Of a stretch of DNA of 64,000 bases, positions 1-64,000 are shown piece after piece. Position 1 is the stretch's first letter; every line of letters begins with the position of its first letter. The stretch covers positions 1-64,000 of the forward strand of contig WFMF01000573.1 of NCBI GenBank assembly GCA_011033025.1. The letters are read 5' to 3'. The stretch comes from Beroe forskalii. Taxonomy: Eukaryota; Ctenophora; Nuda; Beroida; Beroidae. The translations under genes and the position numbers were made by a program. The notes under the pieces are model-generated. The model was not told the origin of the DNA. It did no database searches and saw nothing but the letters and a program-made list of their open reading frames with translations.

Positions 1-1240
1 GGCCTAAAAACTGCCTTTTTCGCCCCTTATTGGGCGTAGATGTCTCTTGGTGGTCAAGAGAAGTGTTTCTGGTCATAAATTATGCGCCTGAAACCACTAA
101 ACCAATGATATTCGCCAGTTTTCCTTTTGTTTTCCTGTAAAATCCAAAAACCCTATTTTTACCTCTCAAAACAGTGATCCAGGACGTTCTTCATTTCTGA
201 GGCACCCAGGATCCGAAATCGAAAAGCTTTGGCCGATTGAGCTGCAAATTTGCACGCCATCCATGGACGACCTAAGGAAGACATACCATACTTCAGAATC
301 CCGAAATCAGCCATTTTCTGTCTGTTATGGGGGTTAAAATCGCGTTTTTCGGCTTAAAACTGCCTTTTTCGCCCCTTATTGGGCGTAGATGTCTCATGGG
401 TGGTCAAATAGAAATGTATGTGGTCATAAATTATGCGCTTGAAACCACTGAACCAATAATATTCGCCAGTTTTCCTTTGTTTTCCTGTAAAATCCAAAAA
501 ACCCTATTTTTACCTCTCAAAACAGTGATCCAGGACGTTTTTCATTTCTGAGGCACCCAGGATCAGAACTCGAAAAGCTTTGGCCGATTGAGCTGAAAAT
601 TTGCACGCCATCCATGGACGACCTAAGAAAGACATACCATACTTAGAATCCCGAAATCAGCCATTTTCTGTCTGTTATGGGGGTTAAAATCGCGTTTTCG
701 GCTTAAAAACTGCCTTTTTTCGCCCCTTATTGGGCGTAGATGTCTCATGGGTGGTCAAATAGAAGTGTATCTGGTCATAAATTATGCGCCTGAAACCACT
801 GAACCAATGATATTTGCCAGTTTTCCTTTGTTTTCCTGTAAAATCCAAAAAACCCTATTTTACCTCTCAAAACAGTGATCCATGACGGTCTTCTTTTCTG
901 AGGCACCCAAGATCCGAAATCGAAAAGCTTTGGCCGATTGAGCTGAAAATTTGCACGCCATCCATGGACGACCTAAGAAAGACATACCGTACTTCAGAAT
1001 CCCGAAATCAGCCATTTTCTGTCTGTTATGGGGGGTTAAAATCGCGTTTTTCGGCTTTTAAACTGCCTTTTTTCGCCCTTTATTGGGCGTAGATGTCTCA
1101 CAGGTGGTCAAATAGAAGTTTATCTGGTCATAAATTATGCGCCTGAAACCACTGAACCAATGATATTCGCCAGTTGTCTTTGTTTTCCTGTTATATCCAA
1201 AAAACCCTATTTTTACCTTACAATGTCAGTTTGAAAGTCT
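1..1240. repeat. ~350-bp tandem satellite, about 3.5 copies
   Basis: A unit of about 350 bp is repeated head to tail. The landmark CTGCCTTTTTCGCCCCTTAT occurs near 11, 360 and 710, with a slightly diverged copy near 1062. The landmark ATTTCTGAGGCACCCAGGAT also recurs at the same spacing. Units differ by a few substitutions and 1-2 base indels, and the last unit decays after about 1220. The array probably lies in an intron of the TMEM260-like gene, since the next coding exon starts at 1348. Short ORFs inside it are not conserved between units. Diverged fragments of the same unit are seen near 2877-2935, 40678-40712 and 53470-53530. Confidence 0.9.
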
Positions 1241-1347
1241 TCGCCAGCTTTCACTGCGTATAATAAGTAATGGTTTACTCTGTCGATTCAATGCATCGCA
1301 TGAATAATCATTTGACACAATCTAATCAATTCTTCACTACTACGCAG

Positions 1348-4300
1348 GTTGTATACGTGTACGTGGCAACAGTGTTCCTTTACGTCATGTTCTTCTGTAA
1401 TCAAGCCAACATCGACACCACTAAAGAGATCATGAAGGGAGTGGTGAGTTACTTTATGAAATCAAAAAGGAAAAAAGTTATTATTTCCGAAAAAAGCTGT
1501 GAAAGAGTTGTCAGATTACGATCTTCTGATCTTATCTTTTGGAGTCTGCCAAGTCCAGTAGATAAAACTATTGATTCCTCTGTTAACTGTTTGATAACCC
1601 TGCGACCCCTCCGCAGTTAGAGAGATTCTGGATGCAGTCTAACATCGTTATCAGCATCCTGGCTGGGTGTGGTGTGTGGTGTATTCACGAACCTATCGCC
1701 TCCCGAGTGGTGAAGTGTGGCTTCCTGAACAAGGTGTGGTATGGTGTGCTGTGTGTGGGGGCGGTAGCTGCTGCTCTGCTTCAAATGGTGAGTAGACCAA
1801 ACTCTTTAAACCCCGTTCTAACCCTTACCACTCTCTCTAACCTGGTTAAAACCCTTACCACACCCTCAAACCGCGCCGTGTGGTATATGTGTGTGTGTGG
1901 TGAGCGGGTAGTATGTTGTGAGAAATATTTTGTTGTTTCGTTAATTTGAATAATCATGCAGTAGCATCAGAACAAGCCCGTAGCTTCAAATCAAAATTTT
2001 CCCGTTTCTCTTTATCTTGTCCTCTATTTAAATATTTAGTATTCCTGTACCTCAGCGAGAGAACTACGTGCTGTGTGACATGAGCAGTAACTATATCATG
2101 GAGGATTACGGGAGGAAGTTACTGGACAGCGTGCCCAAAAACGGAGTTCTGTTGACGGAGGGTGACATGCCTTCTCTTACAGCTAGGTATCTATATGTTG
2201 TGATTACGTCATGATTACGTTTTGTTATAATTAGTAATTACGGCTTGATTACATCAGATTACGCCGTGATTACGTTATAAAACGTGCGGAGGAGTGTATT
2301 GATATTTGCTTTTGCCTTGTTCCTATTATATAACGAAAATAGCAATGTGGACGTTAATAACACCCCTGGTCAGGTACATGAGGTACTCAGAGAACTACCG
2401 TGTGGATGTGGACGTTGTGGACCAGGAGCTGATTGGGTTTCCTTGGTTCAAGGAAATGCACAAACACAACTACAAACACTACATCTTCCCATATGATAGG
2501 TATAACAGTTCTCACATTTTTCGCACATTTGCACAGTTTTGAGTCTTTCAGTTCAAAGCAATTAACTTGCGTTTATAGAAAGTTTTGATCATAATAATCG
2601 AATCTCCGTGCTTATTTTTTGCCGCATCTTGATTTTGCGAACAAAAAAAGCCGGAAATAATATATATTATATGAGGAACTTATACCGTAATATGGAACTT
2701 ATCTTTTAAAAATAATTCCCATTCCGTATAATTTCTTTTTCCTACTCATAACTCACACTTTCTCCAGGGAGATCTATTTCAAGGACGTTCTGGCTCGGAA
2801 AGGAGAAAACTACCCGTTCTCCTACAATTTCAAGGATGTGTTCGATGTCCATCTCAATGCTGGGTACTTTTATGGGGGAGAAAAGTCGGTTTTTCAGACC
2901 TGAAAACTGCCTTTTTTCGCCCTTTATTTGACAAAGAGATCTTGGGGGTAATTAGCGTGGGGGCAATGTTAATATCTCATTGAAAACTAAATCGTTCTGT
3001 GATGATGAAAATATTTCCGTAAAAAGCATATTTTAAACTTGAATCTCTAAAATCTTTTCTTTTGACAGGTTTCCTCTGAAACTGTGACACCTGTTACCCA
3101 TTCATGAAACACAGCGATTTGACACCATTTCGCCCAGACACCACTTTATTCACAGTTCCTACCACCATGCTTTACGAAGGTGAGAGGGAGGAGAAGTTGC
3201 TAGGAATAGATCGAGATTTTGATTTGACACCAGTTCACACTGAAACGTGTTCGCTCTGACTCCAGTTTTAGTTTACCCTGACACCAGTTTACTCTGAAAC
3301 TCTGGCACCCGTTCACTCTGATATCTATTCGCTCTGACACCAGTTTACTCTGACACCAGTTTACCCTGACACCAGTTTACCCTGACACCAGTTTACCCTG
3401 ACATCAGTTTACTCTGAATCTCTGACACCCGTTCACTCTGATATTTTTTCACCCTGACACCACTTTACTCTGACACCATTTCACCCTGACACCACCATGC
3501 TTTACGAAGTTCGTCACAAGAGCAACGCGTACAGTATAGATGAGTTCCTGGACGTTGCCTACCAACACGAGTACAACCTCCAACTTGACAACTGTGATGT
3601 CTCAATTTACCCAGGTAAATGGTGGGGCAGTTTACCCTGGTATATGTCAATCCATGGGTCTGTTTACCCTGGTGAAACTTGGTTCAGTTAAAGAAAAGAG
3701 GGTGTTCTGCATTATGAAAATTGACGGTATTGCAATGTTTATTATGAGTCCCATGTTTTGCTATTTTTACCTGTGTTTGTCATGAAACTTCCGTCACTAT
3801 CTTATCATAGAGTGGACAATGGCCCAGTGGCCCGCAGGAGCACAGAGATTGTCTTTACTTTTAGCGAGAGTTTTAACAAGTTGTTAGCCTAAGAAAATGT
3901 ATACATAAATCACCATAATATTACATCAAAGAGTGTATAGTGTATAGTGTATTCTATTGTCTGCCTTGAAGCCTCATGCATTGTTCTTTACTGAGTTAAA
4001 ACAATAGAGGGAAAGTAAACTCCGCAATTCAGCGAGATAAGGTTGGTATAAGTTCGATTAAGAAGTTTACGCACCTGCGCTAAGTGTAGACGAAGTTTTG
4101 CCTTAGATTGCAGGTTATTTATTACGCTAGAGATTAATTGATCTAAGTTATGGTAGTTGAAGCTACGATTTATAATTATAAACCAATGATATAGACGTAG
4201 CGGTTTATTACTCCATGAATAATCAATGGTCATATAATGCGGTCCTGCACTGTGTAATTATCATTTTACTGTCATTGTCCTTACAAACTGCTCTCATAAG

Positions 4301-7300
4301 TAACCTTAACTTTATGAGCAATACTTTAAATTAGCTGCTCCGCGGGAGACAGAACCTCTCGGTTGGATTGAGAACTTTTCAATGGGGTCCTGTTTTCTCG
4401 CGGACAGATTGGGCATCTCAGCCGATCTCCGATTTTGGGACACTGAGGCTTAAAAATACTTAAATGAGCAAATTTTAAACTTTTAATGACGTCACACAAA
4501 TCAATGACGTCACCTCGTGTATTTTCAGTTCGTAGCTGGGAAAGTGTAATAGCGGGTTCCTGTGGACACACTGTATTCTTTCCTCCTGAGTACGCACACA
4601 AGCTCCTGACGGACGAGAAGTAAGTAGTTACCATGGTTACCATGGTAATACTCAATGGTTTCCATAGTTACCATGTTACCATGGTTAATGGTTATAATCA
4701 TGATTTCATTGGTAAACATGGTAACCATGTTAAACATGGTTAACACAGTTCCAATTGAAATATCTATTAAATTTTATCCATTGGAAAACTCTCTTAAGTT
4801 TATTAAAGTCGATAAGTATTTTACTAATTTGAAGATTCTCCCACGAATAGGCCTGTTACATACCCGTGTCATAATTAACATTCTACTTCACACCTCTCTG
4901 AAGCTTTCAGTAGTTAATTACAGTACATAATAAGACCTCAAAAACTTTTAATCTTGTATTTAGGGTTATATGCATAAATACACACAATCACCCAGAAAAC
5001 AAATTTTCAGTCTTAAAATTCATAGCGATTAAAGGACAAATGGTAAATGTATACCTTATCCTCGTAAAAAATGAGAACCTATTATCAAAAGCAATTCATG
5101 AAAGTTAACAATTAATTCAGGATTGTGGTCACTAAGCTAATTTTGGCATGATAACTGACCCCTATCTCCATCACAGCAACAAGGACCTAAACCACTTATA
5201 ATCTCTTGCTAATGTCTTCATTTTTTGGTTATACAAATCTTTTCTGTTATTCAGCTTCGTTCTTCTTGCCACTTCTAGTGCCTTCACTCTGTGCGACTCT
5301 AAGATTCCCATTTCTGGTTTTTTCATACCAGCTTTCATTGACTTGTACTGCCATATGACTGTCACTTCGTACAGATCGAGGTAAGCGTTGGTGAGGGTTA
5401 GTGAGTTAGTGTATTCGTCTTGGTTTTCCAATATTTCACACTTGAGGAGACCAAACTGAGTGGCGTTCATTAGGTTAGCTTCGATTTTCTCAAACTGTAT
5501 ACACCTTGGCCTTTTAGCTTTTTCAAGGCGAAAAAGGTCGTAATCTTGTATGCCAGTTCGTTTCAATTCTTTCCAAGCTTCAGTGAAATTACAATTCAGC
5601 CGATGAAGTGCACCTCGTATATCGTCATTCTCTTTGTTATCAGTGCAAAGAGCGCAAGAGCAACGGAAATCATAATTCCACCTTAAACGGTCACGCCTGA
5701 CAGAATATTCTGTATAGGCGTCCATAGTGTAAAAGTCAGCTAGACATAAGGCAAAATCCGGGGAGAAATCATATTTGTCGCCCAAAAGGTAACGTGTCCA
5801 AAAATATTTTGAATAAACGCGTCTACTGTTCAGGTCAGCTAGATAAAAGGCAAACAACTCAGATCCTTTTTTGATTTTCCGTGTCAAACGATATTCTGAA
5901 TAAACGTGTCTACTGTTCAGGTCAGCTAGATAAAAGGCAAACAACTCAGATCCTTTTTTGATTTTCCGTATTGCTCGAACTTCCATTTTTTTCTTCCTTC
6001 GATTGCCTGCCAAGCTCCATTCTACATTTGGTACACAACTGTGGTTTATCATGGATATTGTGAAATAAAGAGAGTACAAATCTTCGTCAGTTAAGTTTGT
6101 TACGATGATTTTATTTCTTTCGAAAACTACTGTCGCTTTTTCCCTGTAAGTTTTAGTTTAATTAAACAATAGCGCATTTCTTACAGTCGTTGTTTTCATT
6201 TAATTGGCATTTTTCGGGCGCTTATTTCTAATCCCCCCCCCCGGCCGAAATGATGTATTATTAATTGCGTATCTTTTATGCAAAGTTATGCGCGCTAAAA
6301 AAGTATGATGGTTTCCTTTCAAGTGCGATACTCTGTTACAATTAAGCTTAATGCGATAACAGACTTTGAAATTAAGAACCCTTTAAGAAATTTGTGATTT
6401 TGAGGAGCAAGGATCAGAATGGTCAAGACGAAAGGACATCATAAGTCTTATCGTGAAATTACTTCTTAACTAGATCCGAAGTAGGATAACCAGAGAATTG
6501 ATCTGTAACAAGCTCTGTGCTTGCAGCAGATCACTCTGGTTGGTGCCTAGGATGCCACTGCGCCGAAGCAAGTGACAGGCAGTTGGGGCACGGACAAAAC
6601 TTCAGAAGGCCGTTAGGTAGTATGTACAAATTCTAGGGGAAATTTCAGATCTTGTCCATTGCCAACCCTCAAAGTTACAATGCCTTTTTTTTAAAAGGAA
6701 AAAGGCTTTGGGGAGGAAAGAATTCGAATTGTGTATGTTATAAGCCTTCAGTTTTCGAAAACATCAGCTGAAATTGTGAGATAGACTCTAAAATATCTCG
6801 CGGTACTAACCACTCATTGTTTCCCCTTTCATATGAAATAACATCTTTCCATAAACTATGCATGCCTCTTCCATGACCTGTAAGAGCTAACATCCTATCC
6901 TTATCTTGCTGATTAAGGGCGTCAAATTTTTGTAAAAACGTTAAAATTTTTGACGAATAGAATAAAGGGAATAAAAAAAATCAAAATCCCGGAATTTTTT
7001 CGCTCAGAATAGGTCTTTCTCGAACAATCAGATCCCCTTCATAAAGATCTGAAGTTGCAAAGACGCCTTTTCCTTTGCCTGGAGATTCTCTTATTTCGAA
7101 AGGGCCACAATCAGATTGATGGTAATCCCATTCTTCTTTGTAACACTTCTTGCTGCAATACCGAACTTTTTGACATTTGCACAATTTCCTTGCCCTGGTT
7201 TTGCCGCATGTCACACAGTTTTCATTGGACATTCTACATGGATAGACTTTCCTTCATGATGAGTTTTATCAGATTTAATAGAAATGATGGAGTATTGGAG

Positions 7301-9344
7301 GTGTATGGATTTTAGAAATCTCATTGATCACAGATCTAATAAAAGCAGATTGCAGTGCAAGAAAGATTTACAAAGCAAAATAACAATCGATCCTTTGTCT
7401 ACTTGTAAGGCGATATGTTTCTTATCAGGGAGACCATAACAGTAGAAATTAGAATTTAGAACAGATTTTAGATACCTTCCATTTCATAGTATGTTGGGGC
7501 CTCCTTCTCACGGGCTTTTGTATAATGATTGTAAGAATCACAAGTTTGATAATCAATATCCATCTAATTCATACCCGTTGATTGTAGTATTGTACCTTAT
7601 TTTCCAAACTATGGTCCACTTGCAACTAATTTATTCGGAAATTTCTCTGTTTTAATTCCCTGTTTTTAACACTCTATTAACCGAAGAACCACCTTTCAGG
7701 ATGCTGTACATGAAGCGAGAAGGCAGGCAACCTCTAGAGCGGACATTCAATGTAAGTAATTTGAAAAATGTACTTCAGAATACCTATAGATCTTTCAGAA
7801 AAATTTGTATGTACTTTTAATCGGAAACGGGAAATTTTTCCTTTGTGTCTTCTTTCATAAACTGAATCCTTTGATGGTCCTTAAAAACTGCCTCATTGCT
7901 ATGCACTGAATTTATAGGAATTCATATCCAGCCAATGTGATGGACTATTTCCATTGGACATCTGTCAAAAATCTCACGAAAATAACCGACGCAGGCAAGA
8001 GCAGTTCTTCAAGCCTTTAAAGTTGCGAACTAAAAAATTGGAGAAATGTATAGCAGTCGTTTTTCCTAAACTGTAAAACTGCATTATATGTAATGCTGTC
8101 AATACGCACATTAAACCGAAAGAGCTTTTGTTACAAAATAAGTTTTTGAATGGCTTCAAAAATAAAGTAACTAACTTTTTGCTTCAAATGCAGAATGAAG
8201 GATCTGAAACTTGGGACAAAAACAATTTCGCTTTATAATTGCAATGCCACGAGAACGAGAAATTATTGGACGAGCTTTAGAAAGACATAACGAAAGCAGT
8301 TAACGTTGTATCACACTGCGTAATCACGAGAGTACCATTTTTTAACTGCCAATGCGTGATTGATTAAATTCGATGTGGATGAGATTGCACCATGCCTAAT
8401 TTACGTTTTTATATGAAATAGAAAACAATTCAACACAGTCAATATTGAGATATATATTATATAATTATAATGTTTAGACGACCTATTTACCGTTATGTTT
8501 TGATTCTTTGCGAATTAATCATAGGGGAGATACGTTAAAATCCAATAATTGTGTAGCGAGTGTGTGTGTGTGACAAATTACATTGTGATGTTTATATGAT
8601 TTCATATGTATATTGTATAACAAATTTTAAAGTTCTTATGGGTGGCCCGGCTAGGATCTTTTATGTAGAACTACGGGGAGTTTTTAAAAGTTGTTTCTCT
8701 AAAGGTCATCCCGGCTCAAAAGTGCGGTTGAAGATGACCTCAACTCTTGAGCAATACGGACATGAATCTGTATCTTTATCACTTACTCTCTGTACAAAAT
8801 CCAGATTGAAAACGTTGAAATGATACGAGAAGCTTTCAAATAGCACGTGCTAATCGTCTTCAGCTAATCGTATCCTTTCCAGCTGTATAAGAGAGCTTAC
8901 AACTACCTGACACTGCAAGACGAGGAGGGGCAGACTAAGTTCCTGTTTGATGCGCAACACAACAAGAACTACGGGATTATTGCGTACCTGCTCTACCACA
9001 ACATCTTCAGTCACACGGCAAACGGGTGAGTTATGAAATGATACGTCGAACGTATTGAAACGTTTCTATTGCAATTGTTGTTTTAATATTTCGCTATGAA
9101 ATTTACAACATCGTCTAGAAATCAGATTGCTATCATATTGCTAATTGCTTCACCACACATTCCCCCTTTCAGCCCCGAGAAAGACATCCTCCTTGGAAAG
9201 TACGGTAGAGTAATGGTTGAGCAGTGGGAATACCACTACACTCGCAAACCAGTCGAGGGGGATCCAGAGGGTCTGAAACACGCCATGGAAGACATGAAGA
9301 AGAGATACCCTGATCTCCTGACCAATGAGAAGTACCAGATGTAG
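1348..9344 (+). CDS. TMEM260: TMEM260-like protein O-mannosyltransferase, C-terminal part (11 exons)
   Basis: Known TMEM260 is an ER membrane O-mannosyltransferase (DUF2723 fold) that modifies IPT domains of plexins and MET-family receptors. Phase-consistent exons: 1348-1443, 1617-1787, 2056-2186, 2374-2499, 2768-2863, 3115-3179, 3510-3614, 4529-4619, 7700-7751, 8883-9025, 9173-9344. They total 1248 nt (415 aa plus stop), roughly the last 60 percent of the ~700-aa family; the N-terminal exons lie left of the window. Recognisable blocks are two membrane segments with ERFWMQSN between them, LLTEGDMPSLTARYMRY, VDQELIGFPW, SWESV, LYKRAYNYL and the TPR-like HNKNYGIIAYLLYHN. These match the order of motifs remembered from the vertebrate protein. 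Intron 8 (4620-7699) contains an antisense SMYD-like gene. Intron 6 is a minisatellite (see findings). Family confidence is high; orthology was not tested. Confidence 0.83.
2877..2935. repeat. Diverged fragment of the 350-bp satellite
   Basis: The stretch reads tttttcagacctgaaaactg followed by ccttttttcgccctttattt. It resembles the satellite landmark of 1-1240 and lies in intron 5 of the TMEM260-like gene, showing that the satellite sequence is also dispersed as partial copies. Confidence 0.55.
3070..3509. repeat. ~16-bp minisatellite (CTGACACCAGTTTACC type) spanning exon 6 and intron 6
   Basis: Units of about 16 bp, consensus CTGACACCA(G/C)TTTAC(C/T), run through 3210-3495. The coding exon 3115-3179 is itself largely unit-like (TTGACACCATTTCGCCCAGA then CACCACTTTATTCAC). 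A 19-bp stretch, ACCACCATGCTTTACGAAG, sits at 3161-3179 (the exon end, followed by GTGAGA) and again at 3491-3509 (the intron end, followed by the next exon). The array therefore forms intron 6 and supplies its acceptor AG. Confidence 0.9.
4487..4512. promoter_or_regulatory. Pair of CRE-like TGACGTCA palindromes
   Basis: Two exact TGACGTCA octamers (4487-4494 and 4505-4512) lie 18 bp apart, 16 bp upstream of exon 8 of the TMEM260-like gene. TGACGTCA is the consensus site of CREB/ATF bZIP factors. Function here is not shown. They may be remnants of the dispersed element described in the findings. Confidence 0.5.
4628..4745. repeat. GTTACCATGG palindromic simple repeat
   Basis: The segment is built from variants of GGTTACCATGGTAAC and its complement (for example ttaccatggttaccatggta), so it is largely self-complementary. 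Similar runs occur at 45772-45880, 52550-52592 and 53548-53590. It lies at the start of intron 8 of the TMEM260-like gene, just after the donor at 4620. Its ORFs on both strands are artefacts of the repeat. Confidence 0.7.
5171..7232 (-). CDS. SMYD-like SET/MYND protein nested in an intron; frame broken once
   Basis: SMYD proteins are lysine methyltransferases whose SET domain is split by a MYND zinc finger. On the minus strand, 7232 to about 6985 encodes MSNENCVTCGKTRARKLCKC and the rest of a MYND finger (Cys7, Cys10, Cys18, Cys20, Cys26, Cys30, His38, Cys42), then the start of SET (ESPGKGKGVFA). About 6980-6811 continues in another frame with DALNQQDKDRMLALTGHGRG. The frame change falls at a run of eight A/T. 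A GTTAGT donor (6810-6805) joins in phase to an acceptor before 6143. Exon 6143-5171 carries SMINHSCVPN (SET catalytic NHSC) and the post-SET Cys cluster FRCSCALC. An 87-bp in-frame duplication lies between them. It sits antisense in intron 8 of the TMEM260-like gene. It could be a functional gene with one sequencing error or a young pseudogene. Confidence 0.72.
5808..5969 (-). repeat. 87-bp in-frame tandem duplication inside the SET domain
   Basis: Two near-identical copies (the landmark gtctactgttcaggtcagct starts at 5821 and 5908) encode a 29-residue unit beginning RKIKKGSELFAFYLADLNSR. A third, much diverged unit follows (FALCLADFYTMDAYTEYSVR). Normal SMYD proteins have this segment once, between NHSC and the post-SET cysteines. 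Confidence 0.85.
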
Positions 9345-57383: not shown

Positions 57384-60300
57384 TCAGTCCTCTTCTTCGG
57401 AGAGGTAATCTGCTCCTTCTTCAATCTTAGCATCGAGCATCTTAAAAAACTCCACTTGGGACTGCGTGCGTTCGCTGCAAGAGAAAAAACGTAGAGGAAT
57501 TAAAGATATTTGGAAATATATTAAGGAATTTTGTTAAGGAATTTTGGTAACAATTGAAAAATAAATTAAGTAAGGGTAAATGATTTGAATTTTGAACCGG
57601 GAATTAAAAAGTTAAGTGGAATTCAAGGTACAATTCATACGTCATCAGAAAGGACAATTAATTTTAAAGTTTTGGAATTTCTTCAAATCCCAAATCATAG
57701 TTGTCATTGATAAGATAACCAAATAAGATCGAAAGAGAGATACATTGACACATAAACCCGCAGGAACCCATCCAGCGAATTATATTTCCCACATGAATTA
57801 TTGATCTATTCATAATTTATCACACATATAATAATAAGCGGTCGATGCCACAGTTTGAAGTGTCAAATTGTTGACATGATCAGCCTTCTTAACCCCTTTT
57901 TTGCATGATATATAATCGATACACAGATCAAGAACATTTATCGGCAAAAGAAGACAAATTAAGCGCCATATTAACGAGGATTATTCAAGAGAATTATGGA
58001 CATTTACTGAAGGTTGCGTATGAAAAATAGGCGATGAAATGAAACCAATTATTGCCGTGAACCGCAATTTTAAATGGCTTCTCTCTCACCGGCCTATTTT
58101 TCTTCCACGACCTGTATTTCCAAAAAACATGTAATTTTGAAGTGGTTCAAACATGCGAATATATCGTAGAATATTACTCGGTATCATCAGCAGCCTCAGT
58201 GATGGCATTCATGGATCTGAAAATCGTGATGTTCTATAGAATATTCGGCTATAATTACAGGAGCATGGCAAGCATAAAACGGCTGGAATTGTGTTAGGAT
58301 TTATGTGCCAATGTATGTCGGATAGAATGAAAGTAGTCAAAGGGACAGGGATACTTCGATAAATGTAAATTAATGGGGGACAACCCCAATGGAAGGTGCT
58401 TAAAATGCTAAGAAATTTAAAGGTGTTTGGTCATCAATTTTAAGGTACAGGTTAATCGACGTAATTAGATGCACCTTATCATAACAAACAACACGGTGAA
58501 ATTCCGGTAGCGCTACGCCCTATATAGTGGAAGATATATGCATGTTAAGATTTCTGCTGATGACGTAGGATCGGTCACCGCGATATTCTATACATATCCA
58601 CAGCACAGAATAAACACTACATCTGCTGATCTGCAATATTATAACATCGTTATTCCGTGTTTTTGTTTGTTTTACCGCCCAGCTAATTTCACCCAATTAT
58701 TTCACATAATTATTATGTTGCATTAATTATTATTTACTCGTATTATCAAAGTCATTTACTTCGTATATATCATAATCTTTACTCAAATAAACAAGCGTTT
58801 TTCAAACTTATAAAGCAATTGTTCCCGTACTGTACAGTGTACACTGTACAGCTGCCTGGTTTGAAGGTTCTTGGTAGAATAGTATCCAGAGATCCGTCAA
58901 TGAAAAGTAGATTCATTGGCGATAATTTTCAAAGTGTTAAATTATCTGGTTTCATAGCGATCAGTATCCTGGTATCAGTGTTAAGCGAATTTGTGTCAGA
59001 GCGAACAGCGAATCATTGTCAGGGTGGTCAGTTGATTTGTTGTCGGTATGATCAGTAATCAGGTAGCGGAGTGAACAGTGAATTGATGTTGGAGTGTCAG
59101 CGTAAGCAGTGTGAGTGAATTGGGGTAAGGGTGAGTAATGAATTGGTGTCACTGTGCGCAGTGAACTGGTGTCAGGGTAATCAGTGAATTGGTGTCAGGG
59201 TGAGCAATGATTTGGTGTCAGGGTAATCAGTGAATTGGTGTCAGGGTGAGCAATGAACTGGAGACAGGCAACCAGTGACAGGCAACCAGTTTTAAAGTGA
59301 TGAGTGATCAGTAGCCTGGCATCAGATTGGTCAATGAACGAGTGTCCCGTGTCAGGGCAAGCATTCAGATGGTGATTGTTGGACTGGTCAAGAGTCTGGT
59401 TTATGGCTGACCAGTGAAATGTTAACAAGTGATCAGAGAAGAGAGAAGACCATCAGATTTATCATTAACTGATCTAAGTGATTTCCGATCTGTCTGGGTG
59501 ACCAGTGAAAGATTAAACCATACATCACGTTGGAATTAATAAGCCGTTTTGCCAAAGTTAGGCCTTTAGGGGTCAGGGTAAGGAGTTATGGGAAGGTAGA
59601 GATGACACTTTCATTCCAAGGATTGATTACTGATAACTGTGGCAGATACGAAAATCCGCCAAAAATAGCGACACAGATAATGCCCTTAAAACAGACCTTT
59701 TTTCGAAGTTTTACTTGCATCCGTACCTACAATATTCAAACTTTAGAAAAGAACTATCTCCCATGAATAAAACTTGCAGTTTAATTCTCAAAATTAAACG
59801 TTATTTAAGTCAGATACGGTAAAACAAAACAAGCACCCAAACACACAATAGTGATATTTTGCTTATACATTACACAGGATACGGGCTCCTGCAGAGCTGC
59901 AGGGGTGTTGCGGTCGTATCACTTACCTTGATTACGTCACGCGCTACTTTATATAATCCCGGATATCAAGTGACACAGACATGCTAGAAACACCGGAATT
60001 TCACTGTTATACTAACAAAATAGTAATGCACATATTTTTATGTACTAGATCATAATTAAGGAAAGTGAATTTTTCATGACCAAACACCTTTAAAAGATCA
60101 CGGCACAACATTCTGTGATTTACTTACACAATTGGCCGGCCTGAATTATTTAAAGGGTTGTTAGCATTGTTTTTTACAAGTCCACTATCACGCCGACCCC
60201 TGAAACAAGAATACGACTTTAGAAGTTAATTCGATAACAATCTCAGCGTACCTTATTTGTTTTAATAAGTAATTGATCGTTAATGTAAATGTAACACTTT

Positions 60301-63250: not shown

Positions 63251-63620
63251 TGAGACAAGCAACTCTGACATCACTCTACCCTGACACAACCCTGACACCA
63301 CTCCACACTGACACCACTCAGCACTGACACCACTACACACTGACACCACTCCACTCTGACACCACTCCACTCTGACATCACTCCACTCTGACACCACTAC
63401 AGTCTGACACCACTCCACCCTGACACCACTCCACTCTGACATCACTCCACTCTGACACCACTCCACTCCGATTTGATCTGACTTCACTCTGACACCACTC
63501 CACTCCGATTTGATTTGACTTAACTCTGACACCATTTCACCCCGATTTGATTTGACTTCACTCTGACACCACTTCACTCCGATTTGATTTGACTCCACTC
63601 TGACACCACTTCACTTTTCT
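63250..63620. repeat. CTGACACCACTCCACT minisatellite
   Basis: About 22 units of ~16 bp (CTCTGACACCACTCCA type), with some longer composite units containing TCCGATTTGATTTGACTTCA. The core matches the arrays at 3070-3509 (sense) and 58970-59270 (antisense). A 144-codon minus-strand ORF across it is a product of the repeat. Confidence 0.9.
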
Positions 63621-64000
63621 TTGATTTCACTCCACCCTGAAACTATATTCTGACTTCACACAACATTAATTCTTGTATCAATACTCACTATAATGGCCAT
63701 CGGGGGTTTGCTAATAAAGGAACTCCACAAATAATTGATACAAAACACTAAGCAGCGGAACTGAATTAGAAAATAAGTATGAAATCATTCATTTCAATAA
63801 GATTTAACAAATATTTAATATGTTGCCATGACGACCAATACAGTTCCAGGCTTTCAGGACTTCGGTAAAATGGTGCATCTTAACTTCCTAAGTCACAGAC
63901 GACAACTAGCACATTCTATTCCAAAGCTCCTGTTATTCAAACTTTCTCTTATCATATTTTAAACGTTTAATTAAACGTTTTCATCTTAAGATCGGAGATA

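Follow-up and report, generated by a model that had tools for sequence, protein, structure and literature searches.

The DNA analysed here, called the window, comprises the initial 64 kb (64,000 nucleotides) of contig C662 in the Beroe forskalii genome, which has 216 Mb in 1134 contigs. It contains the 3′ part of a TMEM260-like gene with 11 predicted exons (Table 1). The exons were placed by eye, and the spliced frame is open across all 11. The best homologues are ctenophore proteins, two from Bolinopsis microptera (59% and 48%) and one from Mnemiopsis leidyi (45%). These are followed by an unnamed protein (38%) and then by vertebrate sequences. A Pfam search with a 415-aa piece of the TMEM260 protein finds no family, and an Rfam search of the whole window finds no match.

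The 5′ part of the gene is probably located on contig C408, where the exons end in the 351-bp satellite with which the window begins. This satellite forms an array within a TMEM260 intron, at positions 1-1218 of the window and on C408 (locus L059, about 305-3800). The gene appears to be split between the two contigs at the satellite, so the array was probably either assembled too short or joined wrongly. The Bolinopsis protein P0032 finds its best genome matches in the exons on C408 and C662 (up to 77% identity). Matches to C214 (33%), C525 (37-42%), C492 (30%) and C909 (44%, a 41-residue piece) are weaker, and there is therefore no evident second copy of TMEM260. On C214 (674975-678436, minus strand; L021) there is an intronless, TMEM260-like open frame of 603 aa that shares about 33% identity with the Bolinopsis protein and resembles a retrocopy. 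Inside a TMEM260 intron of the window, the minus strand of 5171-6079 carries a 302-aa ORF free of interruptions, which includes the end of a SET domain. At 5793-5969 this ORF has a tandem duplication of 87 bp (29 codons).

Table 1. Features of the TMEM260 locus and of the EXOSC10 intron compared with it. Coordinates are window positions unless a contig is given.
Feature	Position	Strand or orientation	Basis or remark
TMEM260-like gene, 3′ part	1348-9344	+	spliced frame, homologues, exon matches
Predicted exons 1-6	1348-1443, 1617-1787, 2056-2186, 2374-2499, 2768-2863, 3115-3179	+	TMEM260 3′ part
Predicted exons 7-11	3510-3614, 4529-4619, 7700-7751, 8883-9025, 9173-9344	+	TMEM260 3′ part
351-bp satellite fragment	2867-2928	+	starts 4 bp past the end of exon 2768-2863; 77-83% identical
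Putative ancestral exon 6, 5′ half	3069-3179	+	follows a typical acceptor; YPFMK..TMLYE at 3095-3178
Exon as drawn in the sequence-only reading	3115-3179	+	only tested start that keeps the frame
19-bp exon end, copy 1	3161-3179	+	exact repeat
Candidate new intron, GTGAGA...GAAG	3180-3509	+	330 bp; donor 8/9, frame
Filler carrying the donor GT	3180-3214	+	35 bp
16-bp minisatellite array, dispersed family, with 120-bp higher-order repeat	3215-3490	+	TRF, genome matches
19-bp exon end, copy 2	3491-3509	+	its AAG is the putative acceptor
Putative ancestral exon 6, 3′ half	3510-3614	+	with copy 2 reads TTMLYEVRHKSNAYSIDEFLDV unbroken
EXOSC10 array intron (L017)	C642:80850-81848	array antisense	999 bp

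A sequence-only reading of this DNA had proposed that the segment between exons 6 and 7 is a newly formed intron. Most of the anatomy that it described holds. The 19-bp end of exon 6, ACCACCATGCTTTACGAAG (3161-3179), has an identical copy at 3491-3509, and the AG of the predicted acceptor is the end of the duplicated exon piece. The longest word common to 3100-3179 and 3470-3560 is 19 bp, and the maximum in 2000 shuffles is 11. Units of about 16 bp lie between the two copies. TRF places the 16-bp array at 3299-3494 and, over 3270-3494, a higher-order repeat of 120 bp (90% matches). The 19-mer at the border is present in two copies and not once per array unit. The duplicated copy carries the AG only, and the GT of the putative donor lies outside it in the filler. 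When 3150-3245 is used as a query against the genome, it matches only itself.

The predicted splicing of 3180-3509 restores the TMEM260 frame, as had been claimed. In an enumeration of nearby donors and acceptors, in which split models had donor 3179 and acceptor 3510 fixed, there are four frame-keeping solutions. All of them use an acceptor at 3115 and remove 3180-3509. Models with an acceptor inside the array that read into copy 2 were rejected, and reading straight through copy 2 does not keep the frame from any acceptor tested. The donor, AAG/GTGAGA, agrees with eight of nine positions of the donor consensus. Between 1000 and 10000, 5 of 542 GTs score this high (1787, 3179, 3614, 7751 and 9025), and the four besides 3179 are all predicted donors of TMEM260. 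The insert contains 11 CTGAC motifs, of which the last occupies 3486-3490. The AG of the putative acceptor is at 3508-3509, and the nearest AG before it is at 3406, 102 nt upstream. This AG-free zone is longer than in 12 other CAG-type array rows (at most 64 nt), but it is weak evidence because the zone measures 92, 213 and 1297 nt in three AG-poor arrays and 13-447 nt in other array introns.

The start of the upstream exon is less clear. Position 3115 keeps the frame, but it is a doubtful start since the orthologous YPFMK codons lie upstream, at 3095-3109. The acceptor at 3114 is without a good pyrimidine tract and loses these codons. A more typical acceptor is found at 3068 (ttttcttttgacag). 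With the exon as it now stands, splicing at this acceptor puts stops into all three frames, since FPL and YPFMK are 16 nt apart where the orthologue needs 6. Either the exon has also been shortened, or the copy is broken, or there is an assembly length error near 3079-3094.

The proteins of related species are continuous across the join, although protein continuity does not show intron positions. Across this join Bolinopsis P0032 reads AGVPLYIYPFMKQGDEGYKQFYDLLPTNMLYEVRHKQNSYTVEEFLDI. Its upstream half is matched by YPFMKHSD...VPTTMLYE at 3095-3178 (tblastn E 0.20 within 10 kb). None of 500 shuffles scores as high as the YPFMK..TMLYE match, and 2 of 500 do so once the TTMLYE end is excluded. 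Copy 2 together with exon 3510-3614 matches P0032 at 26 of 40 residues. The remaining ctenophore proteins align more poorly over the first part of the exon. As both exon halves are present and in order, the exon was probably continuous before and the 330-bp insert is probably derived. It is unlikely that an old intron would by chance have the same final 19 bp as the upstream exon.

The array belongs to a dispersed minisatellite family. A BLAST search with the region gives at least 172 matches, which overlap within arrays, and 33 contigs are represented among the matches listed. An exact 30-mer that spans two units is present in 88 copies spread over 22 contigs, and its reversed control does not occur. 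The sense unit resembles a 3′ splice region, with a branch-like CTGAC motif, pyrimidines and CAG. Two further arrays of the family are found in the window, at 59116-59268 and 63262-63640. The latter is a variant poor in AG that carries a GATTTGATTTG insert.

The resemblance between these units and the body of the exon, also noted in the sequence-only reading, is present. Exon positions 3069-3160 align to the array with a score of 43 (shuffles 18.6 ± 3.2; 0 of 500 as good), and 58 of 76 aligned bases are identical. The similarity is colinear over 80 bp. For the control exons 3510-3614, 2768-2863 and 2374-2499, 393, 189 and 465 of 500 shuffles, respectively, are as good. Minisatellite-like stretches are located within exon 3069-3179 at about 3074-3094 and 3116-3151. 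The motif CTCTGAA[AT]CT[CG]TG[AG]CACC occurs once in the exon, at 3074, and twice in the array, at 3292 and 3412; the 47 other array-bearing sequences checked lack it. A stricter array version of it has one match genome-wide. The parts of the exon that look like the array are those that differ from the orthologues, which suggests that sequence passed from the array to the exon. A unit-like stretch in coding sequence is also seen at C630:20900-23400 (L060), where the exon upstream of an array encodes THLTPSEVV from CCTGACACCATCTGAG. This stretch parallels the TMEM260 exon.

Minisatellite arrays of this family make up 50-88% of nine introns (coverage 0.50-0.88), including the TMEM260 intron; these nine were hand-picked, with exons recognisable by eye on both sides. 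Array coverage in eight other TMEM260 introns is 0-0.09. The identified hosts of array introns are Cyclin K and EXOSC10. We take L071 to resemble a kynurenine aminotransferase, L084 a nucleoside transporter and L075, on its acceptor side only, an SLC4 transporter. A Pfam search of L016 and L039 in 12 frames finds no family. L039 and L040 (C88:79602 and 95241) are arrays in opposite orientation that have a common coding-like flank 57 bp away. The array and the flank look as though they had been duplicated together, possibly within a mobile element.

The intron of EXOSC10 shows the same form as that of TMEM260. Its borders read ...CACCAAG/GTAGTCA...array...CCCAAG/GTAGTCACAC, with a 12-bp exon repeat and AAG/GT at both ends. 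This repeat, CCAAG/GTAGTCA, carries both AG and GT. Pfam places the exonuclease domain before the array and the HRDC domain after it. The joined protein aligns to human EXOSC10 (PDB) across the join. Against the parallel, the human protein has three extra residues near the join and the donor scores 6/9. The seven other array introns have exon-end repeats of 2-6 bp, so that 2 of 9 array introns have repeats of at least 8 bp. In ten other TMEM260 donor/acceptor pairs, two of which are alternatives using donor 2863, the repeats are 0-5 bp. The acceptor is AAG in both repeat-flanked introns and CAG or TAG in the seven other array introns. The ends of the arrays, compared by eye, vary, and neither constant element ends nor constant target-site duplications are found.

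Flank repeats were also screened across the family. In the splice-compatible screen, 46 array loci had both flanks and the array bounds in the window were drawn by hand. In this screen, 2 of 46 arrays have repeats of at least 11 bp, compared to 0 of 276 mismatched pairs, and 10 of 46 have repeats of at least 8 bp, compared to 12 of 276. The window (19 bp) and the EXOSC10 locus (12 bp) are above the mismatched maximum of 10. The 10-bp flank repeats of L070, L072 and L075 are array words, and that of L081 was set aside because it is within the null. In a screen of 13 arrays, the EXOSC10 locus has 12 bp and the others have 10 or less, with a maximum of 10 in 156 mismatched pairs. In a screen of 35 arrays, from which two further arrays were excluded at sequence ends, the EXOSC10 locus has 12 bp, L079 has 18, L002 and L008 have 10 and L063 has 9. 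The L079 repeat is an array word from the other strand. This screen is not decisive alone because 5 of 1190 mismatched pairs reach 12 or more, and it missed the 19-bp repeat of the window because the array bounds extended into the exon.

Orientation was scored by eye for 14 arrays near an exon, and 10 are sense and 4 antisense (one-sided binomial 0.09). In an automatic screen of 45 arrays, a coding-like score of at least 9 is reached on the acceptor side in 7 cases and on the donor side in 3 for the sense orientation, and in 3 and 4 cases, respectively, for the antisense orientation; these counts include strand shadows and the duplicated L039/L040.

These observations point, by somewhat better than an even chance, to a genuine new intron that arose by insertion with duplication of the exon end. 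The TMEM260 exon would have been broken after TTTACGAAG. Break repair would then have inserted the filler and a piece of the dispersed 16-bp minisatellite, and rejoining would have left the 19-bp end of the upstream half in duplicate. The start of the filler, GTGAGA, could serve as the donor and the AAG of the duplicated exon as the acceptor. The array units offer branch-like CTGAC motifs, and splicing could excise exactly the insert. We infer that the event is recent from one observation, the 19/19 identity of the two copies. The exon-array identity of 58/76, set against 19/19 in the repeat, means that more than one event is needed. The poor acceptor at 3114 with its loss of YPFMK, the stops that follow 3068 in all frames and the 12-bp flank word, which is unexceptional in the 35-array screen, also argue against the proposal. 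A broader version, in which the minisatellite is a recurrent raw material for introns that repeatedly enters exons with exon-end duplication and many array-filled introns are older products, is doubtful.

The main rival to a new intron is a broken gene copy, in which the array invaded and disrupted the exon, leaving a disrupted allele or young pseudogene whose in-frame splice is coincidental. The 16-nt spacing that puts stops after 3068, the minisatellite-like stretches in both exon and insert, and the satellite fragment that also adjoins the exon end at 2863 would all fit such damage. The remaining predicted exons, however, have open frames and GT...AG borders, the strong donor lies exactly on the repeat border, and no second copy is evident beyond the C408 and C662 exons that best match P0032. 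We consider a broken copy unlikely. It is less probable still that an old intron was filled by the minisatellite and later acquired its exon end by a boundary duplication like the amphioxus ‘mirages’. Such a history has a precedent in those mirages (PMC3087553), and arrays fill much of the Cyclin K intron and others without exon repeats. Yet such an old intron would need a 3′ end of 19 bp that repeats the upstream exon exactly and precisely abuts the next codon, and the acceptor is AAG where the other predicted introns have CAG or TAG.

The sequence-only reading had attributed the intron to tandem amplification of the exon itself. This is not supported, since the unit is a dispersed family that makes up much of introns of unrelated genes, and exon amplification as the sole source is rejected because of that dispersal. 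The colinear similarity, the confined motif and the single genome-wide match of its stricter version speak for amplification of the exon into the array and intron, but the unit is spread over many contigs and genes, and the array-like stretches of the exon are those that depart from the orthologues. The probability of this origin is slight. An assembly artefact at the repeat has almost no probability. The apparent split of the gene at the 351-bp satellite would favour it, but the array is only about 280 bp long, the filler is unique and the flanks are coding.

Several known systems of intron gain share parts of this pattern. In Daphnia, new introns are flanked by exon-end repeats of 4-12 bp (PMC4202315). 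The likeness to break-repair gain there consists of an insert in an exon, a direct repeat of the exon end and internal repeats, which are common in young introns (PMC4202315; PMC3443670). Direct repeats of exon sequence flank the insert here as well, and the predicted sites and the frame are compatible with its being spliced out. These repeats are 19 and 12 bp in the two genes, and the insert, unlike in Daphnia, is largely a dispersed minisatellite. Duplication of an AGGT-containing segment as a source of introns is treated in the review PMC3443670. As in that model (also potato RdRp, PMC4974935), a duplicated exon segment gives the acceptor, and the EXOSC10 repeat holds AG/GT. In contrast to the model, the TMEM260 GT is outside the repeat and most of the intervening sequence appears to be no exon copy. 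The filler is unmatched elsewhere and the canonical units belong to a dispersed family, but 80 bp of the array resemble the exon.

The amphioxus mirages are minisatellite-like repeats at exon-intron borders that are proposed as a source of new introns (PMC3087553). There the unit is the border, whereas here the array is of a dispersed family and its unit does not include the exon-intron border. In human duplicated genes, minisatellites at exon-intron borders make new introns through local repeat expansion (PMC2812944), in contrast to the dispersed family found here. Introners (PMC9860276) are similar in that a single repeat family occupies many introns, nine in this case. They differ in that no fixed element ends are seen here, array lengths differ and long exon-end repeats are confined to two introns.

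A search of the open-licence literature finds no report of ctenophore minisatellite introns, which is not proof of absence. New introns that still show their origin are rare. Both genes carry one signature, a minisatellite array of a single family with an exon-derived copy on either side and AAG at the acceptor, so that a defined mechanism could be tested by comparing a few ctenophore genomes and transcriptomes. The signature suggests that a dispersed tandem repeat could feed intron gain without being a transposon. Compared with the known types of gain, the novelty lies in the filler, a dispersed minisatellite family that introns of other genes already contain.
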